DNA of 44,535 bases from positions 1 through 44,535 of IMG/VR virus record IMGVR_UViG_3300030098_005058, one strand, 5' to 3'. This document shows, piece after piece, positions 3,207 to 44,535 of this stretch. Numbering within the stretch: position 1 is the first letter of the stretch; every line of letters starts with the position of its first letter. A program made the translations under genes and the position numbers. Source of the stretch: a virus. The notes under the pieces are model-generated. The model was given only the letters and a program-made list of their open reading frames with translations, searched no databases and was not told where the DNA came from.

Positions 3207-3879
3207 CGATGCTCCTTTAATTCCTTGGCGTGAAGGTAAAACAGGAGATTGGGTAGTTGCTGATGACGGACAAATATGTGAAGTATTAAAAGATGGAATA
3301 CTAACCAATGGCAATGTAAGATATATAAGAACAGTTATTGGTTCTTTTATATGTAAAGACAATGTTGAAATGAAGGGGGAAATGCGTAAAAACATATACT
3401 CCTTCAGTTCAAAGGATTTAACTGCTAGGGAAACTGTTGTAGAAAGAAAAGAGCCTACAACAAAAGAGTTTATGTTTGCAAAGTATGTTGCACAAGGGAT
3501 GGACTTAGTTGAATCTTTTTTAAAGGCATTTCCTACGGATAACGTAAAACACGCTGAACAACAATCTAGATTATTATTAAAACAGGATAGGATAAAAAAT
3601 TTGATTAGAGAAGAAATAGATAAAATTATGAATGAAGCGGAGATTACTCCGTTATATCTTTTAGAAAAAATGAAAGAGATAGTAGAAAAGCCAGATGCAA
3701 AAGATAGCGATAAAATAAATGTCTTAAAAGAATTAATAGATGTTGCTGGTATGAAAGACAAAAATACAAAGCAAGAGTCTATAACTTTGTTTCAAGGGTT
3801 TAGTCAGGAGCAATTAGATGCAATTAACAGAGATGACACAAAGAAACTTGCAAGCGCTAAAAGAGAAATTACACAATAA
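3136..3879 (+). CDS. Terminase small subunit (TerS)
   Basis: A DNA-recognition subunit of the packaging motor is inferred from position directly upstream of terL and from the helical part at residues about 105-215: a helix-turn-helix-like segment (TKEFMFAKYVAQGMDLVESF), a Terminase_2-like stretch with KHAEQQSRLLL, then long helices (LLEKMKEIVE, INVLKELIDVAGM) typical of the oligomerisation core. Residues about 28-90 look like a small SH3-type beta domain. The start is uncertain: TTG at 3136 lacks a good ribosome site and the first 25 residues may not be translated; no ATG is in frame before residue 79. Confidence 0.7.
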   Translation: MKIRRIKSKIHRLYKNKQEYQKDSDAPLIPWREGKTGDWVVADDGQICEVLKDGILTNGNVRYIRTVIGSFICKDNVEMKGEMRKNIYSFSSKDLTARETVVERKEPTTKEFMFAKYVAQGMDLVESFLKAFPTDNVKHAEQQSRLLLKQDRIKNLIREEIDKIMNEAEITPLYLLEKMKEIVEKPDAKDSDKINVLKELIDVAGMKDKNTKQESITLFQGFSQEQLDAINRDDTKKLASAKREITQ

Positions 3880-4048
3880 GCGTTGTGATATATGTTATCA
3901 CAGTATGATAAAGTATTCGGCGCCTATAATTAAACATGGGAAAGAATCAAAACTTTCTAGTATACAATGTATGACTTGTTTGACAGTATATAATAATAAT
4001 TTAGAAATTGAATGGATAGGTATAAGTGAAATAGAGGGAGATGCATAG
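3818..4048 (+). CDS. Small zinc-ribbon hypothetical protein, 76 aa
   Basis: Two CxxC pairs (RCDIC near 23-26 and QCMTC near 50-53) frame a likely zinc ribbon. The ATG at 3818 is preceded by AGGAG with a 7-base spacer inside the end of terS, which decides for this start over the in-frame ATG at 3833. It overlaps terS by 62 nt and shares one base with the next gene. Function unknown. Confidence 0.7.
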   Translation: MQLTEMTQRNLQALKEKLHNKRCDICYHSMIKYSAPIIKHGKESKLSSIQCMTCLTVYNNNLEIEWIGISEIEGDA

Positions 4049-4389
4049 TGTATATAGCTGCTTATGGAACATTAAGAAATTATAATAACCAAAAAGGAAA
4101 GGTTAAAGACTATAGATTAATATTAGCTAGTAACTTTACATTTCCAGCTGCAATTCCATATAAAGACGAGGAAATTACTGTAGAATTAAATCCAGTAGAA
4201 GATTGGGAATTAGGAGGATTTGATGCTTATGAGAATACAGGCGGAGGACTATATACTAGAAAAAAAGTAAATGTTTTAACAGATGATGGGGATAAAGAGG
4301 CGTGGATGTATGTTGCAGGCCCTGCTTTTATTCAGTATCAAAATGTATTTAGAAAAGTACCTAACAATGATTGGGAATGTCAAACGTAA
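4048..4389 (+). CDS. Gamma-glutamylcyclotransferase-like (GGCT/AIG2/BtrG family) protein, 113 aa
   Basis: The N-terminus IAAYGTLRNYN is the family's YGTLR substrate-loop motif, and DAYENTGGGLYTRKKV contains the conserved acidic catalytic position (DAYE, E near residue 71). Length matches the single-domain family. Members cyclise gamma-glutamyl amides to 5-oxoproline with release of the amine, as in glutathione breakdown or removal of a gamma-glutamyl protecting group (BtrG). It starts at GTG 4048 after AGAGGGAG and lies between terS and terL, an odd place for a metabolic enzyme. With the amidoligases and glutamine amidotransferase on the other strand it suggests a shared amide chemistry. Confidence 0.8.
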   Translation: MYIAAYGTLRNYNNQKGKVKDYRLILASNFTFPAAIPYKDEEITVELNPVEDWELGGFDAYENTGGGLYTRKKVNVLTDDGDKEAWMYVAGPAFIQYQNVFRKVPNNDWECQT

Positions 4390-14544: not shown

Positions 14545-14799
14545 ATGGTAGAAGTATTTGCAGAGTACGGTACAATAGGTGTAATGGTAGTTTTATTTGC
14601 TGGTCAAATAATGTTTTTACAGAAAACTTTAATGGGTAAATTAGAGGAAATAGAGCAAATTACTATCAAGTTAATTGACAGATGGAATAAATCTGATGAT
14701 ATTAGAGATAGAAGGCACGAATCTTTAATACAAGAAATGAATGATATAACTGACGACTTAAATTTTGTTAAAGGTAGAATAAACGGAGGCACGCATTAA
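14545..14799 (+). CDS. Putative holin, small membrane protein, 84 aa
   Basis: One transmembrane segment at about residues 8-27 (YGTIGVMVVLFAGQIMFLQ) precedes a long charged helix (KLEEIEQITIKLIDRWNKSD). This N-terminal-anchor plus coiled-coil plan is common in BhlA/UviB-like holins. It heads a group of small membrane proteins upstream of the endopeptidase gene, which supports a lysis role. Confidence 0.5.
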   Translation: MVEVFAEYGTIGVMVVLFAGQIMFLQKTLMGKLEEIEQITIKLIDRWNKSDDIRDRRHESLIQEMNDITDDLNFVKGRINGGTH

Positions 14800-15614
14800 T
14801 GCACGAAACGCTTGTATATGATTATGCTATTAATCTATTAAGAGATTTTGTTAAAGAAAAAGGTTTTATTGAGGTTCCAGCGCAGTCAAGACTAAATATA
14901 ATGTCTGCCTGCGAAGACCCTAGTACTGTAGCGACTTTCAAAATAGGTGGTCAAGTAATGCCTATGATTCAATCGTCTCAGATGACTTTAGAACATGAAA
15001 TATTACAGAATCAACACTATAAAGGTGTATACTGTATGAGTACAAGTTATCGTGATGAGCCTAATCCTATTAAGGGTAGACATTGTTTAACTTTTCCTTT
15101 ATTTGAAATAGAGTCTTTTGGCGGTATGGAAGATATGATAAAGTTTCAAGCAGAGTTATTAGACTATCTAGGGTTTAAGAATCCAAGTGAAGCTTTATAT
15201 GAACACGTATGCCTCGAATATGGTATAGATATAATAGAAGGTAAGCATGAAAGTAAAATGCAGAAAGATTATGGTGATGTTATAAGTCTTCAGTATTTTC
15301 CTAAACGTGCAAATCCTTTCTTTAATATGAATCACCATAGAGACGATTTGTATGAAAAAGTCGATGTAATTTTAGCTGGACAAGAAACAATAGGTTCAGC
15401 GTCTAGGTCAAGTGACAGGCAAATGATGTATGATAACTTTATGTCAATATCTAATGGGGAGTACTCTCAGAAGCTATTTGATTTATTTGGTAAAGAAAGA
15501 GTCATGCATGAATTAAATACTTATTTATCATTAGACTTCGTTCCAAGATATGGTATGGGGATTGGTGTAACAAGGTTATGCAGAGCTTTAAAGGAGTGTA
15601 AAATTTATGGATAG
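14799..15614 (+). CDS. Class II aminoacyl-tRNA-synthetase-like enzyme (AsnRS/AspRS or AsnA-like core), 271 aa
   Basis: Only a catalytic core is present. Motif 2 is STSYRDEPNPIKGRHCLTFP leading to LFEIE (residues 81-105, with R84 and R94-H95), an AsnRS-type segment GQETIGSASRSSD lies at 194-206, and motif 3 is PRYGMGIGVTRLCRALK (249-265, R259). No anticodon-binding domain is present, as in archaeal asparagine synthetases that descend from AsnRS and in AsnA. It may adenylate a carboxylate and amidate it with ammonia, or act on another amino acid. Start by GGAGG. It sits inside the lysis group and forms part of the proposed amide-chemistry set. Confidence 0.8.
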   Translation: MHETLVYDYAINLLRDFVKEKGFIEVPAQSRLNIMSACEDPSTVATFKIGGQVMPMIQSSQMTLEHEILQNQHYKGVYCMSTSYRDEPNPIKGRHCLTFPLFEIESFGGMEDMIKFQAELLDYLGFKNPSEALYEHVCLEYGIDIIEGKHESKMQKDYGDVISLQYFPKRANPFFNMNHHRDDLYEKVDVILAGQETIGSASRSSDRQMMYDNFMSISNGEYSQKLFDLFGKERVMHELNTYLSLDFVPRYGMGIGVTRLCRALKECKIYG

Positions 15615-16969: not shown

Positions 16970-17464
16970 ATGGCTAGTACCATAACAGCGGCAACAATGT
17001 CAGTAAGTTTAACTGAAAATATTACTTTAAAAGGTAAGAATCAAGGAGCTACTACTAGTTTTTCAATTGCTAGTATTAATGAAATTTTTAAAAGAATAGT
17101 TACATGTCCAGCAAGTCAAGATACTACAATTGCTTTATTTCAAAGTGCTGTTTCTGATAACATAGAATCACTGGGATTAGATACTCAGGATGTAAAATAT
17201 ATTAGAGTTACCAATTTAGATGATACCAATTCTGTAAATCTATCCTTACAAATAGATGCAGGAGAAGATGATAGTGCTGCAGATGAGTCAGCAACAATAC
17301 TATTAGCGGCAGGTCAAAGCTTTGTAATGGGTACATCTCACGATTCAGTAGCAGTAAGCGACGCTAATGCTACTATTGAGACTACATTGCATGATTTAGA
17401 AAGCATATTGATAGACCCAAATGGAAATGCTGTAGATATTGAAGTATTTGTAGCGAGTGCATAA
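16970..17464 (+). CDS. Beta-rich virion-type protein, second of a tandem pair, 164 aa
   Basis: Paralogue of the preceding gene across its whole length: INEIFKRIVTCPA, VKYIRVTNLDDTNSVNLSLQ, GEDDSAADESATIL, then the closing VDIEVFVASA against VDVELFVASS. AGGAG is present upstream. The pair shows a local duplication with divergence, as for two related subunits of one virion structure. Confidence 0.75.
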   Translation: MASTITAATMSVSLTENITLKGKNQGATTSFSIASINEIFKRIVTCPASQDTTIALFQSAVSDNIESLGLDTQDVKYIRVTNLDDTNSVNLSLQIDAGEDDSAADESATILLAAGQSFVMGTSHDSVAVSDANATIETTLHDLESILIDPNGNAVDIEVFVASA

Positions 17465-38717: not shown

Positions 38718-39995
38718 TTATCCAATTTGTGAATAAATTTGACCTAATTTAGTATCCCTAGAAACAGTATATGGAGTAGAGTTTGGTTCATTAAATTGAT
38801 TTACTCTATCTGTCATATATTTCTTAGCATTATCAGTAAGATTTAGTAAACTAGATACTCTATCTATTGTAGTATTAATCTGTATATCATTTTTCTTAAT
38901 GAAAAAATCTATCATATCTCTATGTCTAATATTACTAGAAGAAGGAGGTTCTCCATTATACCAAGAAGCAATATTGCATAAGTCTATCCCTGTATCTACT
39001 ATAGCAGTACATATCTCTGACCAAGCCTTTATTTTTCTAGGATTCAACGAACCTGTATGATATCTAAACTCTATAGTGCCTAAATATGCTCTTGCGTGTA
39101 AGTTTAGACCGTGATATCTAGTTTCGTTATACTTTGAAGTGCTAGGGCTATCGTCTTGATACCATAAGTCCTGAAAACACTCCCAACTTCTTATACTCCT
39201 AATATCATAACTATTATAAAATATAGGTTTACACCATCTAGACTTTCTTCTTGTCTCTGGTTGCATAGCATAGAGTAATGGTTCTAATTTTCTAGCTACA
39301 TATAGTATATGTTTTAATTCGTTCCAGCCTACATCTAATGCATTAACGTGAACGTGCATACCACAACTTTGACTTATAAAATAGTCAAAGTTCTCTGAAA
39401 CGTATCTATTTAGATTATCTATATTGTTGTATAGTGTATCTCCACTAGAAGGAGGATTACTAATAAACTCTATACCTGTATTTGATAGACTACCATCACT
39501 TACAGCAGACCAGCCATCTACAGAATGACCATCATCTCTCCATACATCTATATCTACTCCTTCTACCTCGCATTCTATCCCTACAAGTCTTCTTCTTTTA
39601 TTTTTCTTGTAAGTTCTACCAATTCGCTCTATAGGATACAATGCATCTGGAGGGTCTCCATAGTCTATTTCTTCCGAAGGATAACAAGATTCACAATAGT
39701 ATTCACCGTTAGATTCGCTCCAATATGAACTGTCTAAATTATCTGTTGTATCACAAGAGGAACACATAAAATAGCCATCACCATAACAGCTCTCGCAAAC
39801 CATACTATCTTGACTTTCTATATAGTAAGCATTATCTCTGTTATCTGATAATCCACAATCATCACATATATAGCAATCTTCATAGAAGCATTCTTCGCAG
39901 TAAGATTCATCATCGTGGGTATACTCTTCAAGTTCTTCCTTCTCAATATCTACCTCACAACTAATACAAAGTACTCTAGGCTCTGTATCACTCAT
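38718..39995 (-). CDS. Amidoligase_2-type enzyme with N-terminal LIM-like Zn array, 425 aa
   Basis: Residues 139-145 (GIECEVE), 167-169 (DGS), 211-221 (CGMHVHVNALD) and 306-315 (GTIEFRYHTG) are the ordered motifs of the putative amidoligase family (PF12224), ATP-dependent COOH-NH2 ligases related to glutamine synthetase. Residues 10-104 hold 13 cysteines in CxxC pairs separated by acidic linkers, a zinc array of LIM-like form. Paralogue of 41666-43384 over about 290 residues. It lies in one run with the glutaminase; AAAAGGAG precedes the ATG. Substrate unknown; a peptide, cell-wall or protein carboxylate is likely. Confidence 0.85.
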   Translation of the reverse strand: MSDTEPRVLCISCEVDIEKEELEEYTHDDESYCEECFYEDCYICDDCGLSDNRDNAYYIESQDSMVCESCYGDGYFMCSSCDTTDNLDSSYWSESNGEYYCESCYPSEEIDYGDPPDALYPIERIGRTYKKNKRRRLVGIECEVEGVDIDVWRDDGHSVDGWSAVSDGSLSNTGIEFISNPPSSGDTLYNNIDNLNRYVSENFDYFISQSCGMHVHVNALDVGWNELKHILYVARKLEPLLYAMQPETRRKSRWCKPIFYNSYDIRSIRSWECFQDLWYQDDSPSTSKYNETRYHGLNLHARAYLGTIEFRYHTGSLNPRKIKAWSEICTAIVDTGIDLCNIASWYNGEPPSSSNIRHRDMIDFFIKKNDIQINTTIDRVSSLLNLTDNAKKYMTDRVNQFNEPNSTPYTVSRDTKLGQIYSQIG

Positions 39996-40008
39996 ATTAT
40001 TACTCCTT

Positions 40009-40302
40009 TTAGGTTATGTTTTTTATACCAAGAAAAGTAAATACTAGTACAGGAATCTCTTTCAACCAACCTATTTCTTTTAGCTTATTATAGAGAGATT
40101 CTTCTGTCTTGTCTTTAGGCTCTTCTAATGTTAGAAGTTCTATTTCTGTTCTAACGAAGTCTAAATATTCTTCATAGGTTTTATCCATTAGAAATGGATT
40201 TCTCTTAGCCTTTTCATATAGTTTCTCTAGTACGTATTTCTTAGATTTATATTTAATAGGACTAGGTATCCCTACAAAAGATATTTTTTTATATTTAGTC
40301 AC
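40009..40302 (-). CDS. Hypothetical protein between the amidoligase and glutaminase genes, 97 aa
   Basis: GTG start at 40302 after AGGAGGGG, eight bases within the end of the glutaminase gene, shows tight coupling. Basic N-terminus (YKKISFVGIPSPIKYKSKKY), then charged helices and a hydrophobic end (EIPVLVFTFLGIKN). Not recognised; its location suggests a partner of the two enzymes. Confidence 0.6.
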   Translation of the reverse strand: MTKYKKISFVGIPSPIKYKSKKYVLEKLYEKAKRNPFLMDKTYEEYLDFVRTEIELLTLEEPKDKTEESLYNKLKEIGWLKEIPVLVFTFLGIKNIT

Positions 40303-41446
40303 AATAATCCCCTCCTAAGAATGTTCTGATTTCGTCATCTCTATCACAAACCTCACATATATTATATTGACCATATATAGTAATCTCTTCCTCTAGGACA
40401 GATTCAGTACAACCATCACAGTTTATCAATTTAGAATATCTAGAAGGCCATTTAGAGTCGCAACTAGGACTATCTTCATTACTACAACCATAACAAGTCA
40501 TATTTTCATTAACATAGAGTAACTTGTCTGGGTCAAAATAACTCTGACAGAACTCGCATTGATACTGAGTATCAGATATATATTGACAATTAGTACAAAT
40601 ACATTCATAATTATATGTATCCTTATCACAGATTCCACATTTTGTAGGCATAGATGTATAAGTACCATAGTTATATTGTCTAGGATTATAGCCATAATAA
40701 TAGTAATTATCATAACTAATCTTCGGAGTAAATTTCTCTGAAGTATATGCAGGCTTCTTAGAAAAATCTCTAGTATCTATTTTAAAGATATATTCATTCT
40801 GTAGGGATTGAGTCTTTAACATTAACCCAGAGGCTCTTAATCCTTCTTCTAATATATCTCTGGTAGATGCCCAAAATAGAGTCTTAGCTTTTTTCCAATA
40901 GGTGAAATTAATAGGTCTAGAGTCATCTCTTAAAAGATATAACTCGTAGGGATTATCCTTAACAAAAGTTAAAGCATAGTCTCCACTTAATTTCTCTACA
41001 CCTTCCTTAACTCCATACTTATCAATAGATGCAAAAATGGCTTCAGAATCTACTTCAATGTCTATATTCATCTCAGATGCTAGACTATCGTGATTTCTTA
41101 AAACTCCATTGTGAGCACCGATAACTCCACCTATACTAAATGGGTGAGAGTTTTTTGCTGATATAGTGCCGTGAGTTGCTAGCCTAACGTGTCCTAGACC
41201 TACAGTAGTATCTCTATTGATACCACTTAAGACAGTATCCCAATCGCTATGACTAGTCATCTCTACACTAGACAACGTAGACTTCCAGATATTATTATAT
41301 CTTGGTGAAATAAGGGCAATCCCTGTACTGTCATCTCCTCTAACTATAGAGGAATCAGCTAGATTGCTAATTACTTCACGGATTTTCTCTATCTGGAAAT
41401 CATTCTGTGATTCGCCTTTCTTAGCGAAACCGAAAATTCCACACAT
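40295..41446 (-). CDS. Class II glutamine amidotransferase (Ntn glutaminase) with C-terminal Zn array, 383 aa
   Basis: MCGIFGFAK gives the Cys2 nucleophile after Met removal. GLGHVRLATHG (83-93), HPF (101-103), AHNG (111-114), DSE (133-135) and GDY (155-157) match the GATase II domain, which releases ammonia from glutamine. No SIS or synthetase domain follows; residues 270-366 hold about 14 cysteines in LIM-like pairs, with a Tyr/Asn-rich linker (245-262) between. It would feed ammonia to a separate ligase: the amidoligases on either side are the obvious partners. AAAAGGAG precedes the ATG. Confidence 0.9.
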   Translation of the reverse strand: MCGIFGFAKKGESQNDFQIEKIREVISNLADSSIVRGDDSTGIALISPRYNNIWKSTLSSVEMTSHSDWDTVLSGINRDTTVGLGHVRLATHGTISAKNSHPFSIGGVIGAHNGVLRNHDSLASEMNIDIEVDSEAIFASIDKYGVKEGVEKLSGDYALTFVKDNPYELYLLRDDSRPINFTYWKKAKTLFWASTRDILEEGLRASGLMLKTQSLQNEYIFKIDTRDFSKKPAYTSEKFTPKISYDNYYYYGYNPRQYNYGTYTSMPTKCGICDKDTYNYECICTNCQYISDTQYQCEFCQSYFDPDKLLYVNENMTCYGCSNEDSPSCDSKWPSRYSKLINCDGCTESVLEEEITIYGQYNICEVCDRDDEIRTFLGGDYCD

Positions 41447-41495
41447 AGTGTTTTCTCCTTTTTTTATTATTAAATAAATCTTTCTTTACTAAATA

Positions 41496-41642
41496 TCATT
41501 TTGTGCTTTCTTTAGATATTCTTTTATTCATATTGTCAATAGCATTTTCCAAATTATCAATAGCACTATATATATCACCACCTTCACGAAGGTCATATAA
41601 GATATTCTCTAAATCTTGAATTACCTCTTTTATTTCTTCCAT
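41496..41642 (-). CDS. Small acidic helical protein, 48 aa
   Basis: AAGGAG with a seven-base spacer precedes the ATG. Single amphipathic helix-pair (EEIKEVIQDLENILYDLREG, then YSAIDNLENAIDNMNKRI). Lies in the gap between the amidoligase and glutaminase genes and may be a subunit or coiled-coil adaptor. No family recognised. Confidence 0.65.
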   Translation of the reverse strand: MEEIKEVIQDLENILYDLREGGDIYSAIDNLENAIDNMNKRISKESTK

Positions 41643-41665
41643 TTTATTTCTCCTTTTTTTATTTG

Positions 41666-43384
41666 TTAGTAAATCATTGATTGCTCCATATAATATAGGT
41701 AGAACTCAGGTATCCCTAGATAATAGAAAAACTCTTTAGGGGTAACGTCGCTACTATCAATAATTATATCTTTTAAATTTTTGTTAATATTAAATGAGTT
41801 CTCTACAATAGATAGGCACAAAGAAATCCAATTCTCTATTTCGTGCATATTAAAAGTAGAGTGATGGTATCTAAACTCTATTGTTCCGTGAACAATCCTA
41901 GAGTGAATGTTTAGTCCTCTATATCTAGAGTCATTATATTTAGCATCATCTACAGAAGTATTAGAAATAGTCCTGTACCATAACTCTGTATAATCTCTTA
42001 GAGTCTTTATATCTAGCAGACTATTTGTATTTATATTAGGCAAAGGTTTACAATAACTATTTCCTTCTCTATTTTTTGGTAGCATATTAAAAATCCATTT
42101 TTCTAATATATATCCCAATGCTAGACAATTTTTCATTTCTTCTAATTGCATATCTAGAGCGTTAACGTGTATATGTAGTCCACAACTATTATTAACATAG
42201 CCTCCAGTATTGCTAATCATATTTGTTAATCTCTCTATATCGTTAAGCAGAGTATCTCCATTTGTAGGAAATTTCATTACATACTCAGAGCCAAAGTCTT
42301 CATCATCAATAGAGGTATCTCCAACTATTCTCCAACCTCTTGGTATAGAGAGTCCTTCCCAATCGTGAACACATTCAATCTCTACTCCAACATTTCTACG
42401 AAATTTATTTCTCTTAAAACTGTTAGATTTCTTATGACTTGCTGGGTTAATCGCTCTCTGAGGTACTCTGTAAAATTCTCTAATAACATCTTCAGAGCAA
42501 TGTTTACAATGAACTTCACCATTTATTTCTAGAGATTTATCAAATTCTAAATCGCCGCATAGTCTACAGAGAACCATTTTACTAGAGCAACTAAGACATA
42601 TAGAGCCGTTCTTTTCTATAATAGTTGCATCTCTATAAGTCATATATTTCCCTGCTTTATTTAGTATTAGATAATCTTTATCACATAGTTTACAATTAAA
42701 TTTAGAATGATGAGCACATTCAGAACAGTAAGTTTCTATATATAGGTTGCCAGTAGATTTATCATTTGTAAGAAACTGATGTCCTCTATGGTCTGATATT
42801 ACCATAGAGTGAATTAGAACTCTCTTATCACAGCTCTTACAAGTTTGTACAGTACAGCTATTTTCTATATTTTTTAATTCTAGATATTCGTAGATTATCT
42901 CTCCAGCAGTAGAATTACTGAGTGTAGCAAAATAATCACAAGCAATTCCTCTAGAGTATTTATTCCAATTATATACCTTCTCTTTTATAGAATTTTTATC
43001 ATCTCTAAATACTCTAATAACTTTTCTACTTTTATCTACTACAGCTATATCATTATATGGTAAGCTACCTCTCTGATTTGCTCCTATTAGCATAACATAG
43101 GCTTTATTATTAGAGCGTATACTAATTACTATCCCTGCTCTAGTCTTATATATATCAGGCTCTACCTCAACCTCTACACCTACTAAATCATTAAGATGTA
43201 ATTCGTAGGAATCAGATACTGTCCCATTAAATATATACTCTTTATCAAACCATATAGAAAAATCTTTCCCAGAATTATCTATTATTCTAACTAGATATTG
43301 ATTTCTGTCTATGTTTTCATCTACTATTGAGCCTCTATAGACTCTATAGTTAAAGAGTACGTAGCATTTACTACCTATATGCAT
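41666..43384 (-). CDS. Amidoligase_2-type enzyme with N-terminal SH3-like region and LIM-like Zn array, 572 aa
   Basis: Motifs match the paralogue at 38718-39995: GVEIEC (333-338), DTS (356-358), CGLHIHVNALD (401-411), GTIEFRYHHS (500-509), with CKP near 445. Residues about 1-125 look like two KOW/SH3-type barrels (KCYVLFNYRVYRGSIVDEN, then DLVGVEVEVEPDIYKTRAGI). Residues 177-296 hold 16 cysteines in CxxC pairs. AAGGAGG precedes the ATG. It is an early gene: only about five small genes separate it from the presumed start of the minus-strand unit past the junction. Confidence 0.85.
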   Translation of the reverse strand: MHIGSKCYVLFNYRVYRGSIVDENIDRNQYLVRIIDNSGKDFSIWFDKEYIFNGTVSDSYELHLNDLVGVEVEVEPDIYKTRAGIVISIRSNNKAYVMLIGANQRGSLPYNDIAVVDKSRKVIRVFRDDKNSIKEKVYNWNKYSRGIACDYFATLSNSTAGEIIYEYLELKNIENSCTVQTCKSCDKRVLIHSMVISDHRGHQFLTNDKSTGNLYIETYCSECAHHSKFNCKLCDKDYLILNKAGKYMTYRDATIIEKNGSICLSCSSKMVLCRLCGDLEFDKSLEINGEVHCKHCSEDVIREFYRVPQRAINPASHKKSNSFKRNKFRRNVGVEIECVHDWEGLSIPRGWRIVGDTSIDDEDFGSEYVMKFPTNGDTLLNDIERLTNMISNTGGYVNNSCGLHIHVNALDMQLEEMKNCLALGYILEKWIFNMLPKNREGNSYCKPLPNINTNSLLDIKTLRDYTELWYRTISNTSVDDAKYNDSRYRGLNIHSRIVHGTIEFRYHHSTFNMHEIENWISLCLSIVENSFNINKNLKDIIIDSSDVTPKEFFYYLGIPEFYLYYMEQSMIY

Positions 43385-43895: not shown

Positions 43896-44420
43896 TTACT
43901 TATCTAAAACTTCCGAATTTCTACCGAACCCTTGTAAGTATTTACCCTTAGCTGTAGGCTTAAAGCATACTCTAGTATCACGCTTTCTCTCAGTGCGTCC
44001 GTTCTCAAAAATTCTCATATCTATCTTTTTAACTTTCTCATAATTAGGTAATCTAGACTTAGTGTTTTTTCTTAATTTGTAATTATACCTGAGAACACGT
44101 TGTCTATCAATGCAGTCCTGTACTAAGTTATCCACGTCTACAAATGAGGTATAAATAGAGTTTGATTCTAAGTCTTTAATAATCAAGTTTCTATTAGATT
44201 TCCTTGCTAGAGTCCTACACCTCTCTATAAGTACCCTCAAGGAGTCGACGCCAACTATAGACATTTTCCGTTTGATAGGTTTTACTATATCTAGTATTCT
44301 AAATTCCTCTACAAACTCCACTATATAATCTACTCCATTCTCTACTGCGTGGAAGTCTAGAGTGATGTCAAATCTAGATTCTGCGTTCTCCTCTATAAAA
44401 TTATTTATAGGGGTTTTCAT
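43896..44420 (-). CDS. Hypothetical protein, 174 aa (complete copy)
   Basis: First part lies in the right terminal redundancy, and the complete reading frame is here. Alpha/beta N-terminal half (FHAVENGVDYIVEFVEEFRI, RVLIERCRTLARKSNRN), and a strongly basic C-terminal half (YNYKLRKNTKSRLPNYEKV, RTERKRDTRVCFKPTAKGK). Basic C-terminus suggests nucleic-acid contact, but no family is recognised. A terminator lies upstream at 44460-44490, so a promoter must be close before the ATG or transcription reads through. Confidence 0.65.
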   Translation of the reverse strand: MKTPINNFIEENAESRFDITLDFHAVENGVDYIVEFVEEFRILDIVKPIKRKMSIVGVDSLRVLIERCRTLARKSNRNLIIKDLESNSIYTSFVDVDNLVQDCIDRQRVLRYNYKLRKNTKSRLPNYEKVKKIDMRIFENGRTERKRDTRVCFKPTAKGKYLQGFGRNSEVLDK

Positions 44421-44459
44421 TTTTCTATATTTCTCCTGTAGTTTTTAGGTTATGTAGAA

Positions 44460-44489
44460 AAAAAAGGGCTGTAGAATATACCAGCCCTT
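44460..44489 (-). terminator. Terminator hairpin, right-end copy
   Basis: Same 8-bp stem as at 252-277 (arms 44464-44471 and 44482-44489), with eight T on the minus strand. One more base in the run than in the left copy. Confidence 0.8.
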
Positions 44490-44521
44490 GTTTTTATCCT
44501 GTTTACTATTAAAAGCACTAT

Positions 44522-44535
44522 CTATTCACCTGTAG
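44522..44535 (-). CDS. C-terminal codons of the 183-aa gene (right-end copy)
   Basis: Encodes only the final four residues and the stop of the gene at 310-861, the rest being off the window edge. It arises from the circular overlap, not a further gene. Confidence 0.8.

Follow-up and report, generated by a model that had tools for sequence, protein, structure and literature searches.

The combination of an amidoligase, a class II glutamine amidotransferase (GATase) and a gamma-glutamyl cyclotransferase (GGCT) in phages was predicted by Iyer et al. in 2009, and by Hardies et al. in 2013, both as cited in PMC5498523. That paper describes a 'peptidoglycan modification cassette' thought to change the host surface after infection, in podoviruses of the RIO-1, phiEco32, LUZ24 and PA11 types. 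In the classic set, an amidoligase and a GATase go with a COOH-NH2 ligase (PF14395), an ATP-grasp enzyme and, in most cases, a GGCT; it is annotated in PaP3, Bas90, CVT22, phiM6 and others, and its makeup varies among annotated phages. Three cassette proteins of coliphage SU10 (ATP-grasp, GATase and the GGCT-like YtfP) have been seen by mass spectrometry and are listed as early (PMC4281155). Here we describe a relative of this cassette in a viral stretch of 44,535 nucleotides (IMG/VR record IMGVR_UViG_3300030098_005058, positions 1 to 44,535, hereafter the window). Its minus-strand block at 38718-43384 encodes a long amidoligase (AmidL), a GATase, an orphan protein of about 100 residues (the small protein) and a short amidoligase (AmidS). 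We consider it probable that these four genes encode a glutamine- and ATP-dependent carboxylate-amidating complex that is made early in infection.

Gene content and enzyme families

An earlier note, made from the letters of the window alone, had proposed a dispersed amide-chemistry system of five genes: two amidoligases, a glutaminase, a GGCT and an enzyme resembling asparaginyl-tRNA synthetase (AsnRS) or AsnA. All five genes lie where it placed them (Table 1). Each of the two large proteins scores over the curated cut-off for PF12224 amidoligases, and between them lies a class II GATase; the GGCT-like and class II synthetase assignments likewise stand. The reading as amide chemistry is supported too, as is co-occurrence in related phages, so that neither outcome which the earlier note had named as refuting it was obtained.

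Table 1. Coordinates of the module, its domains and the two more distant genes in the window
Feature	Coordinates	Strand	Evidence and remarks
AmidL, long amidoligase, 572 aa; N-terminal ~175 aa of unassigned fold, then zinc ribbons, then Amidoligase_2 domain	41666..43384	-	PF12224 4.4e-29, 102.5 bits (cut-off 22)
AmidL zinc-ribbon array, residues 182-296	42497..42841	-	three CxxC..CxxC pairs
Amidoligase_2 catalytic domain of AmidL	41804..42340	-	conserved E335, E337, H404, H406, R439, N492, E503, R505
48-aa open reading frame (ORF) between AmidL and GATase	41496..41642	-	own Shine-Dalgarno; this lineage only
Class II GATase, Cys2 nucleophile, C-terminal zinc ribbons	40295..41446	-	PF13522 4.3e-17
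GATase zinc-ribbon array, residues 270-367	40346..40639	-	
Small protein, orphan, ~100 aa (97 aa here)	40009..40302	-	GTG start overlaps GATase stop
AmidS, short amidoligase, 425 aa; N-terminal zinc ribbons, then Amidoligase_2 domain	38718..39995	-	PF12224 2.6e-23, 83.6 bits (cut-off 22)
AmidS zinc-ribbon array, residues 10-104	39684..39968	-	three CxxC-x19-CxxC, net charge -25
Amidoligase_2 catalytic domain of AmidS	38997..39530	-	profile match
GGCT-like (GGACT/AIG2)	4048..4389	+	PF06094 1.6e-11; overlaps TerL start
AsnRS-like class II synthetase core, outside the module	14799..15614	+	PF00152 9e-13; phrog_29758 7e-76

AmidL and AmidS are 36% identical, and the eight catalytic-domain residues listed for AmidL in Table 1 are invariant in alignments of 14 and of 34 amidoligases. 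The catalytic half of the AmidL AlphaFold model has a pLDDT (predicted local distance difference test) of ~72-94, and a fold search of the model against BFVD, a structure check suggested in the earlier note, matched phage amidoligases, including those of phage tf and CW02, with E values down to 3.5e-12. Residues 1-175 of AmidL match no family; their low-confidence model is beta-rich and gives weak SH3/Tudor/L2-like fold matches, which can serve as a lead only, and this part is absent in some relatives (L111, L116). The GATase is equally intact. It retains its motifs (Cys2, RG..STG, GH.R.AT.G, HNG and DS), with C2, R36-G37, H86, R88, H112-N113-G114 and D133-S134 invariant in 21 sequences, and its PHROG match is to a GFAT-like aminotransferase (5e-37).

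The module ORFs overlap or nearly overlap and have Shine-Dalgarno sites, such as the AAGGAGG preceding AmidL. The gap between AmidL and the GATase is 218 bp in the window and its near-identical sibling (L139), as against 0-62 bp in other loci. The window is terminally redundant: positions 1-323 and ~44213-44535 cover the same stretch of this sibling, with an exact 77-base match between the ends and ~320 bases at each by alignment to the sibling contig, strain variation being present. This makes the genome nearly complete and effectively circular, and it puts the GGCT gene only ~4.9 kb from AmidL and not at the far end; the description of the system as 'dispersed' was misleading.

Conservation in related phages

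Relatives were collected in two ways. A scan of IMG/VR with both window amidoligases gave 41 loci, and a second set of 37 records of at least 10 kb was picked by TerL and not by any amidoligase trait. In 34 of the 41 loci (L003, L099-L131), the order AmidL, GATase, small gene, AmidS is kept wherever the contig allows, and genes for a Cas4-like exonuclease, a resolvase and DnaB are found downstream. Two PF12224 matches are present in 31 of these 34 records, and two of the other three end at a contig edge. The small gene is present in 32 of 33 related loci, the remaining contig stopping inside the GATase. Identity of AmidL among relatives is ~20-30%, and the module appears to have been retained over the long term despite this divergence.

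The TerL-selected set gives a view that does not depend on the trait itself. An amidoligase is found in 15 of its records, and every contig reaching the site has one, beside a GATase where this can be read. The other records end before the site or before the AmidL catalytic domain, as judged by the length of contig upstream of TerL; G054, which on length was the most marked apparent exception, was checked and breaks off within the adjacent Cas4-like gene. A sister branch of seven loci (L195, L198, L199, L201, L213, L215, L217) has a GATase with 0-2 CxxC motifs followed by a single zinc-ribbon amidoligase, and no small gene was detected in these seven. A zinc-ribbon amidoligase, a GATase and a GGCT are thus the core of this phage clade, and the small gene and the GATase ribbon accompany the second amidoligase. 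A catalytic-domain tree built on a subset of rows unites AmidL and AmidS with the sister-branch enzymes (92/94), and six classic-cassette enzymes (100/100) and two lone enzymes fall apart from this group. The tree is in keeping with, and not proof of, a duplication within the clade as the origin of the two ligases.

A TerL scan of bacterial genomes gave no relative and hence no host, and the spread of metagenome identifiers may point to a marine habitat. One record (G055:C1, 63940 bases, L178), from a clade whose genomes are ~44 kb, is matched four times by amidoligase and twice by GGCT; it probably arose by the joining of two related genomes or as a concatemer.

Zinc ribbons and the small protein

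Tandem CxxC zinc ribbons are present in all three module enzymes. They precede the catalytic domain in the two ligases and lie at the C-terminal end of the GATase, with a spacing of CxxC-x~17-19-CxxC and 7-residue linkers. Five AmidL cysteines (C231, C273, C276, C293, C296) are invariant in 34 aligned amidoligases, and C297, C300, C318 and C321 of the GATase are invariant in all 21 aligned GATases. The AmidS array gives a weak match to LIM (PF00412; 1.8e-4, 22.1 bits, under the cut-off of 22.9) and so is not LIM by profile. Within openly available papers that combine amidoligase and zinc ribbon, no account of such an architecture was found. The net charge of the ribbons is -15 to -27 in AmidS, -4 to -19 in the GATase and -14 to +3 in AmidL. 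This charge disfavours a role as nucleic-acid binders, and since the ribbons are mostly acidic, contacts with protein are likelier.

Were the target a protein or peptide, the ligases would act on carboxylates of host or phage proteins, whether on side chains or at a terminus, by amidation or conjugation, and the acidic ribbons would bind that target. The LIM-like character and negative charge of the AmidS ribbons suit such binding, and the conserved small protein of unassigned fold also speaks for this reading, but no substrate signature is seen and conservation at the C-terminal end of the small protein is partial, the end being usually N-x-G-hydrophobic (NIGV/NYGIA) and KNIT in the window copy. 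We regard a protein or peptide target as rather unlikely, though next in rank after the cell-wall peptide. Modification of DNA or nucleotides, in which the ligases would amidate a carboxylated or amino-acid-bearing base, might be suggested by the neighbouring genes for a Cas4-like exonuclease, a resolvase and DnaB, and classic cassettes likewise adjoin primase/helicase genes. Acidic ribbons would be poor partners for nucleic acid, however, and the Pfam scan of window proteins (31812 and 17849 were compared with PHROGs alone, and the scan did not extend to many small ORFs) bears out the earlier remark that base-pathway genes are missing: no base-hydroxymethylase, pyrophosphorylase, thymidylate synthase-like or deazaguanine family was matched. 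This makes DNA an improbable target. In the amidating complex proposed here, the simplest reading of the ribbon arrays and the small protein is that they keep the enzymes in one assembly or bring them to a shared target.

The small gene has AGGAGG ahead of its GTG start, and 12 residues of its product are invariant across 21 sequences. The protein belongs to no PHROG family and no convincing Pfam family, with weak matches to DUF5312 in 4 of 21 members (best 9.7e-5), and its structure model (pLDDT 74) has no PDB match with E below 3.9. Its C-terminal tail is hydrophobic, if moderately so (best 19-residue Kyte-Doolittle mean 1.1-1.65). The gene always sits between those of the GATase and AmidS, is coupled to them and appears with the second ligase, and its product usually has the N-x-G-hydrophobic ending. 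These features would be compatible with a small protein that is itself the acceptor or carrier, a phage-encoded modifier whose carboxylate the two ligases activate and then conjugate or amidate in a Pup/PafA-like manner, with the GGCT as remover; we think this very improbable.

The GGCT and AsnRS-like genes

The GGCT has a YGTL motif and a catalytic glutamate, with Y6-G7-L9 and Glu62 invariant over 15 sequences. It is present in 36 of the 37 TerL-selected records, the exception beginning inside TerL, and it always lies between TerS and TerL wherever the region is covered. Since this position reflects synteny of the whole genome, its membership as a fifth component of the module is plausible and unproven. 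A 76-aa ORF between TerS and the GGCT gene (3818-4048) has two CxxC pairs, resembles a zinc ribbon and is kept in a subset of relatives.

The AsnRS-like gene, which the earlier note had taken as the fifth member, lies outside the system because reciprocal co-occurrence fails: it is found in only one of the 41 amidoligase records, the near-identical sibling, and none of 41 AsnRS-core phages has an amidoligase over the PF12224 cut-off. The gene is located among holin-like genes of the late module and retains motif 2 (SYRDEPNP..GRH) and motif 3 (GMGIGVTR). Its core family (phrog_29758) has at least 539 IMG/VR loci, for example L017:6974-7777 and L018:4974-5771, and includes the cyanophage 'tRNA ligase' T4-GC 194 of P-SSM2 and P-SSM7, which is 46-47% identical to the window protein and has both motifs in common with it. 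In P-SSM2 and P-SSM7, a tRNA-Asn(GUU) of ~87 nt directly follows the gene, whereas the window has no tRNA at all, and thus no phage tRNA-Asn partner for its copy; ARAGORN found tRNA-Asn in none of 80 IMG/VR AsnRS-core loci. The family may serve in charging or repair of tRNA-Asn or in asparagine synthesis. A further late-module protein (16970-17464) has a weak match to the Lamin Tail Domain (PF00932, 9e-4, under cut-off).

Proposed chemistry and target

Class II GATases free ammonia from glutamine, and ligases with the glutamine-synthetase fold use ATP to activate a carboxylate, from which they make an amide. In the proposed complex, the GATase would hydrolyse glutamine to ammonia via Cys2, and AmidL and AmidS would each join an ATP-activated carboxylate to this ammonia or to an amine. 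The sharing of one GATase by two ligases suggests two carboxylates or two steps, which a single source of ammonia would serve, and a possible role for the GGCT is the trimming of gamma-glutamyl amides. If the classic podovirus cassette is a guide, the outcome may be an early modification of a host component, for which the cell-wall stem peptide is the leading published guess.

Several points weigh against this proposal. The PDB fold search of AmidL gave no match at E <= 0.001, glutamine synthetase included, that search being dominated by the poorly modelled N-terminal half; a glutamine-synthetase-like mechanism therefore rests on family and not on structure comparison. Among the papers found on phage PF12224 enzymes, none reports a biochemical function. 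Early timing is read only from strand and gene neighbours. One genome (G007:C1; L104, L220) is truly without AmidL while retaining the GATase, small gene and AmidS, which means that AmidL is not essential everywhere; as a natural deletion, this genome is useful for telling the two ligases apart. Lastly, synteny in the clade extends to the whole genome, so that co-occurrence partly reflects shared descent, above all for the GGCT. The same observation could be explained if the genes were unrelated metabolic cargo, as the positions of TerL, the GGCT, the Cas4-like exonuclease and DnaB are conserved as well. Against cargo, amidoligase and GATase genes are neighbours or near neighbours in the unrelated phages PaP3, Bas90, phiM6 and Ottawa, and the small gene, second ligase and GATase ribbon go together; we give cargo very little credence.

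The amidating complex could act on the cell wall. Stem-peptide amidation is established chemistry, carried out by MurT/GatD or class II GATase enzymes, and two ligases would fit two carboxylates. On this account, carboxylates of peptidoglycan stem peptides or of their precursors, for example D-Glu alpha- and diaminopimelate carboxylates, would be amidated, and the changed envelope would block superinfection or control lysis, with the GGCT editing gamma-glutamyl bonds. The classic cassette of RIO-1-, phiEco32- and LUZ24-like phages has been read in this way in print, and the small protein could be brought to the membrane by its tail. However, that tail is only moderately hydrophobic, the enzymes showed no membrane or envelope-targeting domain, and the TerL scan gave no host from which the wall chemistry could be read. 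We put the cell wall forward as the leading but tentative target, less likely than not.

Finding the target could be aided by the shared ribbons and the small gene, which provide handles in the form of interaction partners and a possible substrate. Amidoligase and GATase genes are found in hundreds of GenBank phages (353 records are matched by AmidS and 348 by the GATase), and the papers found do not report their product.

Comparison with known cassettes

Like the classic cassette, the window group has a PF12224 amidoligase beside a class II GATase, a GGCT in the genome and a position near replication genes. Two classic partners are absent. No PF14395 COOH-NH2 ligase was found in the window or in any of 38 non-classic IMG/VR amidoligase records, with the same search positive in PaP3, Bas90 and the classic-type records G039-G041. 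Likewise, no ATP-grasp (RimK-like) gene was found in the window or in any of 25 clade records by a search that was positive in all five classic-cassette records. Without these two enzymes, the minimal chemistry would be that of a class II GATase and a PF12224 ligase, of which the sister branch has one each.

A further likeness is seen in the sister branch and in ctgrD200 (MW202733), where an amidoligase with N-terminal CxxC arrays lies beside a class II GATase as in the window; in the sister branch, the GGCT gene also lies between TerS and TerL. Both differ from the window in having one amidoligase, a GATase with few or no CxxC motifs and no detected small gene. Unlike the classic cassette, the window group has two PF12224 enzymes, ribbons on all three enzymes, an orphan gene of ~100 aa and a GGCT in the packaging operon. 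The module is already known in kind, and what is new is its ribbon-tagged, reduced architecture together with a conserved small gene.

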